Origin: Verrucomicrobiota bacterium
GTDB lineage: Bacteria; Verrucomicrobiota; Verrucomicrobiia; Chthoniobacterales; UBA10450
Direction of reading: 5' to 3'
Assembly: GCA_003221195.1 (NCBI GenBank)
Contig: QHQO01000039.1
Span: forward strand, 1-35,026
DNA: 35,026 nucleotides
Below are positions 10,109-12,976 of the stretch, in pieces. Position numbers and translations under genes: made by a program. Positions within the stretch are counted from its first letter, which is position 1, and each line of letters begins with the position of its first letter. The notes under the pieces were generated by a model that did not search any database, had not been told where the DNA came from, and worked only from the letters and a program-made list of their open reading frames with translations.

Positions 10109-11020
10109 ATGAAGTTCGGATTAACGCTTGTCGCTGCTCTTTTGTTCGCTGTTTCCACGTCGCACGGGCATGAAGCGATCTTTTCGTGGACTTACACGAC
10201 TGACCTTACGCCGAAAGGTCATGGCGAATTTGAGCAATGGATTACCACTCGTTGGGAAAAGGAGCATGGTAGCTATAGCGTTATCGATTTTCGTGAGGAG
10301 TTCGAATACGGCGTGACGGATAATTTCCAGCTCGCGATCTATCTCAACCATCATTACGTCCACGCGAATGACGATGTTCCGGCTGAAGATCCGGCGCATC
10401 CTGGCAATCGTTTGCGTGGCGCTTACGAAACCGGCGGTGAAGACGTGCACGCCGGACACAATCCGGCGACGACGTTCGACAGTTATCATTTTGAGTCGGT
10501 TTCGCTCGAAGGGATTTATCGGCTCCTGAGCCCTTACAAGGATCCAATTGGTCTCGCGCTTTATTTCGAACCATCGGTGGGTGATCAGGAAACAGAATTG
10601 GAATGGAAAATTCTGCTACAAAAGAACTGGCTCGAAGACCGGCTTGTTTGGGCGTTAAACGTCAATTACGAGCTCGAATTCGAAAAGGAGGACGGTGGCG
10701 GCTACGAGCGCGACGGCATGTTCGAATGGTTCACCGGACTTTCTTACCGCTTTGTGCGCAATTGGTCAGCAGGTTTGGAATTTTGGAATCATCACGAATT
10801 TGCCGATGCCACCATCCACGAGCATTCAGCCTACTTTTTGGGGCCGACGATTCATTATGGCGGCGAACGCTGGTGGGCTACCCTTGGATTCCTTCATCAG
10901 CTACCAATCGGAGAGGCGTTTAGTCACGATAACAAGGAGTTTGCCGCGCACGACGGCTACATCTTTGGCGACGAGCACGAAAAATACTACGTGCGCTTCA
11001 GAATGGGAATTAACTTCTAG
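10109..11020 (+). CDS. Exported His-rich protein, probably an outer-membrane barrel
   Basis: The 303-residue product begins with a signal peptide (MKFGLTLVAALLFAVSTSHG). The ATG at 10109 is preferred to the in-frame GTG at 10091 because it starts this peptide directly. The mature part is rich in alternating aromatic and polar residues and ends in an aromatic (FRMGINF), as outer-membrane beta-barrels do. It has many His, Asp and Glu residues, for example NHHYVHANDD, EDVHAGHN and WNHHEFAD, suggesting metal contacts. It may belong to the DUF6662-like group, but that name comes from memory and is uncertain. The FMN-binding protein gene starts six bases after its stop codon, so it is probably part of the flavin module that follows. 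Confidence 0.72.
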   Translation: MKFGLTLVAALLFAVSTSHGHEAIFSWTYTTDLTPKGHGEFEQWITTRWEKEHGSYSVIDFREEFEYGVTDNFQLAIYLNHHYVHANDDVPAEDPAHPGNRLRGAYETGGEDVHAGHNPATTFDSYHFESVSLEGIYRLLSPYKDPIGLALYFEPSVGDQETELEWKILLQKNWLEDRLVWALNVNYELEFEKEDGGGYERDGMFEWFTGLSYRFVRNWSAGLEFWNHHEFADATIHEHSAYFLGPTIHYGGERWWATLGFLHQLPIGEAFSHDNKEFAAHDGYIFGDEHEKYYVRFRMGINF

Positions 11021-11026
11021 CGCGTG

Positions 11027-11551
11027 ATGAAATCGGAGTTCGCATTCATCGCGCTGCCTATTTCCGCGCTGGTCGTGCCATCCGCGTTTGCCGTTCGATA
11101 CCTCACAGTCGATCAAGCGCAGCAGGCGATTTTTCCCGGCAAATCATTCACGGCGGCGCCGGTAAAGCTGACGAGCGTTCAACGCAAAGCCATTGAGCAG
11201 GCCAGCGGCGTCCGCGTCTTGCATGACGAGCAGCAGGTCTGGCGCGTCAGCGGCGGGGGTTGGTTTATCGTCGATGAAGTTGTCGGCAAACACGAATTCA
11301 TCACTTATGCGGCCGGACTCAATCCCGAGGGTTCGGTCAAGCAGATTGAAATCATGGGTTATCGCGAGACTTATGGAGGCCAGATTCGCGATCAAAAATG
11401 GCGAGCCCAATTTGTGGGAAAGACCAGCAAATCCACGCTTAAACTCGATAGCGACATCAAAAACATCAGTGGAGCAACTTTGAGTTGCCGGCACATCACC
11501 GACGGCGTGAAACGCCTTCTGGCATTTTATGAGATCGCACTCAGGCATTGA
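11027..11551 (+). CDS. Exported FMN-binding domain protein (ApbE substrate)
   Basis: The 174-residue protein has a signal peptide (MKSEFAFIALPISALVVPSAFA) and an FMN-binding domain like that of NqrC and RnfG. The flavinylation motif is ISGAT, with T151 as the predicted attachment site for FMN, followed by the usual helix (CRHITDGVKRLL). The middle part (GWFIVDEVVGKHEFITYAAGLNPEG, then GYRETYGGQI) matches the domain's core. The ATG at 11027 is preferred to the GTG at 11024. The gene overlaps apbE by 23 bases, and ApbE is the enzyme that would attach the flavin outside the cytoplasm. It probably carries electrons between the membrane protein encoded downstream and an unknown acceptor. Confidence 0.88.
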   Translation: MKSEFAFIALPISALVVPSAFAVRYLTVDQAQQAIFPGKSFTAAPVKLTSVQRKAIEQASGVRVLHDEQQVWRVSGGGWFIVDEVVGKHEFITYAAGLNPEGSVKQIEIMGYRETYGGQIRDQKWRAQFVGKTSKSTLKLDSDIKNISGATLSCRHITDGVKRLLAFYEIALRH

Positions 11552-12425
11552 AATTCGTCGCTGCCGCCCATTACTCGGCACGCTTGTGGAGATTGCATGT
11601 CAGGGATCGCCTCACGATATCGATTGCGCCTTCACCGCGATGGAAAAGGTGCAGCGGCTGATGAGTTTTCACGATCCTACCAGCGATGTCGCGCGAATGA
11701 ATCGCCATGCTTCGCGCCGCCCGGTCAAAGTTCATCCATGGACCTGGCGCGTTTTGAAATCCGCACAGGAATTTTCACGTAAAAGCGATGGCGTCTTTGA
11801 CATCACAATGGCCCGGCAACTGGTGAAATGGGATTATCTTCCGAGATCTGGCACGCGGCTTTGCAGTGCCGGAAGCTGGCGCGACATCGTTCTAGACGAT
11901 GAACACAACGTTCAATTCCGCCACCGGCTGATCGTTGATCTAGGAGGCATTGCCAAGGGCTTTGCGGTTGATCGCGCTGTTGCAGCGTTGAAAAATAATT
12001 CTGTCACGGCCGGAATCGTAAACGCGGGCGGTGATCTGCGAACATTTGGATCGGCCTCGGAGGTTGTTTATGTGCGTCATCCCGTCGAGCCGACACGCAC
12101 TGCCGGCGCGGTGCGTCTGCGCGAGCGTGCCATGGCGACCTCGGGAGTCTATTTCGAGCGTCGAAAATATCGCGGCAAGTATGTGGGCCCAATACTTGAC
12201 GGGCGTACTGGTCAATCTGCCTGCGAACTAATCAGCGTGACCGTCGCGGCTGCTGAATGCATGATAGCGGATGCGCTGACGAAACTTGTTTTTACGCTGC
12301 GTGAAAAGGTCGCGGGCTTGCTGGCGCAGTATCGTGCAGACGCACTGTTGCTTGAGCGCAATGGTACGCCATCCTGGATGTTTCACTCGCCATGCGACAC
12401 CCGCGACCAGACTCGATTCGATTGA
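11529..12425 (+). CDS. apbE: FAD:protein FMN transferase
   Basis: The 298-residue protein is an ApbE-family enzyme, which moves FMN from FAD to a threonine of an exported protein with magnesium as cofactor. Family landmarks are visible: VDLGGIAKGFAVDRA (FAD binding), NAGGDLRTFG, ATSGVYFE, ILDGRTG and the C-terminal ADALTK with a metal-binding Asp. No lipobox or clear signal peptide is seen at the N-terminus, which is unusual because most ApbE proteins act outside the cytoplasm; the export route or the start site may need revision. It overlaps the FMN-binding gene upstream by 23 bases and the membrane gene downstream by 34 bases, so the three are almost certainly one operon. Confidence 0.93.
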   Translation: MRSHSGIEIRRCRPLLGTLVEIACQGSPHDIDCAFTAMEKVQRLMSFHDPTSDVARMNRHASRRPVKVHPWTWRVLKSAQEFSRKSDGVFDITMARQLVKWDYLPRSGTRLCSAGSWRDIVLDDEHNVQFRHRLIVDLGGIAKGFAVDRAVAALKNNSVTAGIVNAGGDLRTFGSASEVVYVRHPVEPTRTAGAVRLRERAMATSGVYFERRKYRGKYVGPILDGRTGQSACELISVTVAAAECMIADALTKLVFTLREKVAGLLAQYRADALLLERNGTPSWMFHSPCDTRDQTRFD

Positions 12426-12976
12426 AGCCCTTGCAGAGATATTTTCTCTACGCCGTCGTAGCGCTGCTTTTTTTTAGCGGCGTCGCGTGGGCATATTGGA
12501 ATTATCTGGCTGTGTCGCCCGGCGATTTTGAAACAAGCGCGAAAACCTGGGCGATGAAGCTCCATGGCGCGGCCGCGATGGCGATTCTGGTATTGATCGG
12601 CATGCTGTTGACTGGCCATGTGAGATTCGCATGGCGCGCGGGCCGTAACCGCCTAAACGGCTCGGTGTTTCTGAGTGCGTTCGCTGTTTTGACCATCACC
12701 GGCTACGGTCTTTATTACGCGGGCGGCGAAAGACTGCGTGCGTGGACCAGTTGGATTCATCTCGCTATCGGCCTGGTTTTGCCGATCTTACTGCTGATCC
12801 ACATCTTTCTGGGAAGGAGGACACGCCCTTTGGGTCAATCTCGAACCCGATCGCGTCTGGCGTCCCAGGGCGCGACAGACAGACATCCAAAGCCCTTTAC
12901 CACGAATCCCAATACGGCACTAAGTGAAGCCAGTAATAACGCTGAATTTCGGGTTGCACATCGACCCTTGCTGTAG
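12392..12976 (+). CDS. Four-helix membrane protein with paired histidines (DUF4405-like, probable cytochrome b)
   Basis: The 194-residue product has four predicted membrane helices at about residues 15-37, 56-77, 90-110 and 118-140, then a polar tail of about 54 residues. Helix 2 has H58 and H76, and helix 4 has H123 and H137. Such spacing fits two stacked b-type haems, as in DUF4405- and PepSY-related electron-transfer proteins. Haem binding is inference from the histidine pattern. The ATG at 12392 overlaps apbE by 34 bases; an in-frame TTG at 12422 overlapping the apbE stop codon is an alternative start. It is a likely route for electrons from the quinone pool to the FMN protein encoded two genes upstream. 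Confidence 0.75.
   Translation: MRHPRPDSIRLKPLQRYFLYAVVALLFFSGVAWAYWNYLAVSPGDFETSAKTWAMKLHGAAAMAILVLIGMLLTGHVRFAWRAGRNRLNGSVFLSAFAVLTITGYGLYYAGGERLRAWTSWIHLAIGLVLPILLLIHIFLGRRTRPLGQSRTRSRLASQGATDRHPKPFTTNPNTALSEASNNAEFRVAHRPLL

Follow-up and report, generated by a model that had tools for sequence, protein, structure and literature searches.

A conserved gene set for an outer-membrane-type barrel, an FMN_bind protein, ApbE and a small b561-like membrane protein: a candidate extracytoplasmic ferric reductase in Verrucomicrobiota and other bacteria

The membrane partners of flavinylated proteins were sorted by Meheust 2021 into five classes, and in that work the PepSY-like and MsrQ-like systems were tied to iron reduction, the PepSY-like ones also to Fur (PMC8238504). 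Huang 2024 added the DUF4405 cytochromes, including FezC, for which a link to iron exists through ferrosomes (PMC10979944). The four-gene set that we describe here would work like these known flavinylated systems and differs from them in its small cytochrome, in a channel-like barrel that belongs to its core, and in an unusual ApbE. With the PepSY-like and MsrQ-like systems (PMC8238504), which were proposed to be assimilatory ferric reductases as we propose for the present set, it shares ApbE, an exported and presumably flavinylated protein, a putative haem-bearing membrane protein and associations with iron; in contrast to them, its membrane protein is b561-like with four helices and matches neither PF01794 nor PepSY, its core includes an outer-membrane barrel, and its ApbE has neither a signal peptide nor the general-base histidine. 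With the DUF4405/FezC systems (PMC10979944) it shares a small membrane cytochrome with four conserved histidines, encoded near apbE, but the published DUF4405 proteins have six helices whereas there are four here, the protein studied here scores below the DUF4405 cut-off, and the published clusters carry a flavodoxin or a flavin transporter, with no mention of DUF6662. Among open-licence papers we found no description of the four-gene set, nor any paper on DUF6662.

The window, i.e. the whole stretch of 35,026 nucleotides that was analysed, is an entire contig of a metagenome-derived genome. It belongs to a soil bacterium of the Verrucomicrobiota that stands close to Candidatus Udaeobacter, and the genome comprises 3.10 Mb in 276 contigs and is 86.8% complete. 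The four genes (Table 1) lie between the gene for a PduO-type cobalamin adenosyltransferase (cobA) and rpsB. There are 3 bases between the barrel gene and the FMN_bind gene, which in turn overlaps apbE by 23 bases, while apbE overlaps the gene for the four-helix protein by 34 bases; thus the row of four genes with overlaps among the last three, as given in the initial annotation, is confirmed by ORF coordinates and Pfam domains alike. Three of the families proposed there were also recovered above cut-off, namely DUF6662 (PF20367, 64 bits vs 27), FMN_bind (41.8 vs 22) and ApbE (179 vs 25.6). Both ApbE and FMN_bind occur once in this genome. A further gene for cobalamin adenosyltransferase (74% identical) was observed on another contig (G000:C276:6832-7350); it may be a duplicate, or the metagenome bin may be contaminated. 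PADLOC gave no match to phage defence genes, and a search for RNA families found none.

Table 1. Position and predicted identity of the four genes of the set in the window
Feature	Position	Strand	Evidence
DUF6662 outer-membrane beta-barrel, 303 aa, signal peptide, His-rich form	10109-11020	+	Pfam, AlphaFold2, PDB fold matches
FMN_bind protein, exported, 175 aa, SGAT at S149-T152	11024-11551	+	Pfam, alignment
ApbE, FAD:protein FMN transferase, 298 aa	11529-12425	+	Pfam, alignment to solved ApbEs, clade survey
b561-like membrane protein, four helices, 194 aa	12392-12976	+	Pfam, model, His conservation

Related loci were picked by a scan for the FMN_bind subfamily alone; it confirmed 498 relatives, and the analysis used the best 80 of these. 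Since one gene alone chose the loci, finding the other three there tests the set independently. The complete set in the same order was found at 68 of these best 80 of 498 loci (66 counted directly, plus L174 and L175, where the first start of the ApbE ORF lies too far upstream), and six more have a different predicted barrel in the first slot. We call this alternative barrel "Porin_O_P-like", rather than a Porin_O_P member throughout, because nine proteins were tested and the Porin_O_P cut-off was passed by three. The remaining loci comprise L127, the one locus of the 80 where ApbE is missing at the site (ApbE is present at the other 79), L157, which stops before the cytochrome, and others with a contig edge or a slot without a barrel. 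A second Porin_O_P-like predicted barrel, with a coiled-coil-like stretch at its N-terminus, was observed downstream of the module at L133, L134, L137, L148, L159, L162 and L175. The hosts belong to Verrucomicrobiota, Proteobacteria, Acidobacteria and Omnitrophota, one is a Chlamydiae MAG, and there are others; Dyella japonica, Luteibacter rhizovicinus and Chthoniobacter flavus are among the carriers available in culture. The distances within the four families co-vary (Mantel r of 0.61-0.75, compared with a maximum of 0.13 in permutations), and each of the four genes is kept by purifying selection (dN/dS 0.04-0.34). Because the order holds across phyla and selection acts on all four genes, the set is more than a chance association. 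The first gene thus keeps company with the other three in relatives, a point on which the initial annotation could have failed, and its view that barrel, FMN_bind protein, ApbE and a di-haem-like cytochrome make up a real module is supported.

In a survey of the genus the set occupies the cobA-rpsB site in eight genomes, whereas in nine cobA directly adjoins rpsB; the identical order recurs in two other genera of the family (G043, G046) and in another family (G084). Within Verrucomicrobiota as a whole DUF6662 exceeds its cut-off in only 9 of 337 genomes, as opposed to 207 of 337 for FMN_bind, a difference that fits horizontal spread. Plasmids carry the genes as well: a Sphingomonas plasmid has the full set, with DUF6662 annotated, and plasmids of Methylocystis and Bradyrhizobium have a larger hypothetical protein followed by FMN_bind, ApbE and a small third gene.

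The first protein had been described as barrel-like, and structure prediction agrees: the AlphaFold2 model (pLDDT 91.6, pTM 0.86) is an outer-membrane barrel of 12 strands, and the C-terminal residue is Phe. Searching the sequences of the PDB with a profile of the barrel gave no significant match, while the model itself resembles 4rl8 and 5o65 (Z about 21.6), so that a 12-strand channel of the COG4313/FapF shape is confidently predicted. The likeness to the COG4313 channel Pput2725 (4rl8, PMC4493636) and to FapF (5o65) lies in this outer-membrane channel fold; identity is about 10% and the genomic partners are different. The richness in histidine named in the initial annotation (20 of 303 residues, 6.5%) turned out to be a trait of the lineage, since the family median is 2.6% and a single histidine, H249, is invariant in the family; for the same reason we rejected the idea that a His-rich barrel is the metal-binding heart of the system.

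Could the barrel of the window organism instead be a resident general porin, with a job separate from that of an acquired three-gene reductase? The His-rich barrel does occur without the other three genes in several genomes, standing alone between cobA and rpsB in G010, G014, G021 and G031 (further cases are a disrupted copy in G022 and a contig end in G015). Moreover, the module's own barrel appears to have been broken or lost in two genomes. In G028 a second DUF6662 barrel (L084:8348-9194), split over two frames and 72-82% identical to the barrel of G046, lies next to fmn and behind an intact His-rich barrel, and in G017 a remnant of this same second barrel (L088:6475-6648), which keeps just its two ends, about 33 residues of the N-terminus and 31 of the C-terminus, is located between the His-rich barrel and fmn. 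The simplest reading of these sequences is that the module came with its own barrel, landing behind a resident His-rich paralogue which would later have taken over the slot. On the other side, a barrel 71% identical to that of the window heads a complete module at L130, where a Fur gene lies 63 bp upstream, and therefore the His-rich form can be the module's own; the 3-base gap and the strong conservation among module carriers also speak against separate jobs. Overall we regard separate jobs as rather unlikely, and consider below the barrel as a working part of the set.

The FMN_bind protein has RnfG as its nearest solved relative and resembles RnfG and NqrC in having an FMN_bind domain with an SGAT-type site. 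Here, however, no Rnf or Nqr subunits adjoin the set in the window and the scores are far under the family cut-offs (23.1 vs 102 bits for RnfG, 18.4 vs 144 for NqrC); membership in Rnf/Nqr was therefore rejected, in agreement with the earlier statement that Rnf/Nqr partners are lacking. The SGAT site is S149-G150-A151-T152 when counted from the GTG start, and is invariant in 81 of 81 sequences, the best 80 of 498 included. The site named in the initial annotation is thus real, but its threonine is T152, T151 being the number counted from the second Met. ApbE lies beside an exported substrate with an [ST]GA[ST] motif, the pattern of an ApbE-flavinylated protein, and from the sequence covalent FMN is predicted on T152. 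A hydrophobic leader is found in 74 of the 81 FMN_bind partners, and one has a Tat-like motif. Five residues past the target threonine, His157 is 92% conserved within the subfamily, and the corresponding residue of RnfG is Ala.

The ApbE of this set is unusual in two respects. No signal peptide or lipobox was found in it, the 13 residues ahead of Pro14 of the first strand being too few to hold a signal peptide, and no strongly hydrophobic leader was found in its clade. In addition, alignment to solved ApbEs places Pro221 at the position of the general-base histidine (His257 in other ApbEs, PMC12052999), and H-x-x-D-P is found in 2 of 80 members of the clade, whereas most other ApbEs of the order retain this motif; the Asp and Ser of the triad are conserved. 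The clade also has ADALTK where other ApbEs have ADALST. The question thus arises how an ApbE with neither signal peptide nor general base acts on an exported protein: either flavinylation would take place ahead of export, or ApbE would be exported by another route.

For the fourth protein the initial annotation had suggested DUF4405, which was rejected (18.1 bits, cut-off 26.7), as was an MsrQ-like identity, there being no Ferric_reduct (PF01794) match in the protein. It narrowly passes the cut-off of Ni_hydr_CYTB/cytochrome b561 (PF01292; 32.7 vs 30.1 bits), and its model has four long helices. His58/His76 and His123/His137 are 100, 100, 99 and 95% conserved in 79 sequences, and sequence and model together suggest that they are haem ligands, which would make two bis-His haems. 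The model gave no Foldseek match at E < 0.001, and the VIA-align Z values of 9-12 against di-haem cytochromes b support a helical bundle weakly. A four-helix protein with two histidine pairs, as originally described, is hence upheld by the model and the conserved histidines; losses of the pairs or of SGAT in orthologues were looked for as evidence against the module, and conservation was found instead.

A metal had been mentioned as a possible acceptor; we find a metal likely, and the relatives narrow this to iron. Of 73 loci, 27 have Fur-box-like sites (at most 4 mismatches of 18) upstream of the operon, compared with 14 of 1465 other windows and, at the same threshold, 5 of 252 promoter-matched controls (p 3e-15), although such p-values overstate certainty, because related loci are not independent. 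Scored against the 19-base Fur consensus, at least 14 of the 19 positions match at 17 loci, whereas 200 permuted palindromes average 0.79 loci; two permuted palindromes with near-equal counts are themselves near 7-1-7 Fur boxes. Among the best 80 of 498 loci, the recurrent neighbours include bacterioferritin (10 loci), FeoB (8), Fur (6) and ExbB (4), representatives of which were confirmed by Pfam, as well as putative TonB-dependent-receptor-like proteins (4). In six loci bacterioferritin stops 99-159 bp short of the set's first gene, and in four FeoB begins 20-266 bp downstream of the set. The loci that share common iron genes are partly related and hence not independent, and at the majority of loci no iron gene adjoins the module. 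Neither FeoB nor Fur nor Ferric_reduct was found in the window genome (86.8% complete), and its operon has no Fur box ahead of it, the best site matching 12 of 19 positions of the Fur consensus; an iron role there therefore follows by homology.

The same data bear on two other explanations. One may consider extracellular electron transfer, in which barrel and flavoprotein would form a conduit to an external acceptor, e.g. iron oxide, either in respiration or to keep redox balance. An outer-membrane barrel gene directly upstream of the flavoprotein gene is indeed seen in nearly all of the best 80 of 498 loci, and several carriers bear names of iron- or sulfur-oxidising genera. Nonetheless, the barrel is modelled as a narrow 12-strand channel, the flavoprotein is one small domain, no multihaem or multi-flavin carrier was seen among the recurrent neighbours, and Fur control with FeoB and bacterioferritin neighbours better fits assimilation, so that a conduit seems to us distinctly improbable. 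Alternatively, the target could be another periplasmic one, such as copper, a protein or an organic oxidant, with Fur control reflecting a general need under iron limitation. The failure to find Fur and FeoB in the window genome would suit this, as would the two-component system genes beside some copies and the Methylocystis plasmid copy amid multicopper oxidase genes. Yet that plasmid locus also carries a ferritin-like gene and the recurrent functional neighbours are iron genes, and we consider a target other than iron unlikely.

We therefore lean, with slightly more confidence than doubt, towards the four genes encoding a stand-alone extracytoplasmic reductase, most likely a ferric reductase for iron assimilation or homeostasis. 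In such a reductase, the four-helix protein would take electrons from membrane quinol and hand them, by way of its two bis-His haems, to the periplasmic side of the membrane. There the FMN of the exported FMN_bind protein, attached to Thr152 by the neighbouring ApbE, would accept them and pass them on in the periplasm to Fe(III) or to a ferric chelate, which would thereby be reduced. The iron species would enter through an outer-membrane channel formed by the DUF6662 barrel, or in some loci by a Porin_O_P-like one, and Fe(II) would be taken up afterwards, via FeoB where it is encoded. We infer that electrons run in this direction, from quinol to haem to FMN, that iron is their acceptor and the cargo of the channel, and that the window copy does the same job as its relatives. 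A bolder reading is less likely than not: a distinct, horizontally spread, Fur-regulated ferric reductase, in which a DUF6662 channel and an FMN_bind protein would be joined by a four-helix cytochrome of minimal size and by an ApbE that is cytosolic and lacks its general base; flavinylation would then precede export, perhaps aided by the clade-specific H157 of the substrate.

With this gene set DUF6662 obtains its first functional setting, and a predicted outer-membrane channel is added to flavin-based electron transfer. The assignment as a ferric reductase also predicts that many soil and freshwater bacteria own a further iron reductase, partly annotated as hypothetical genes.
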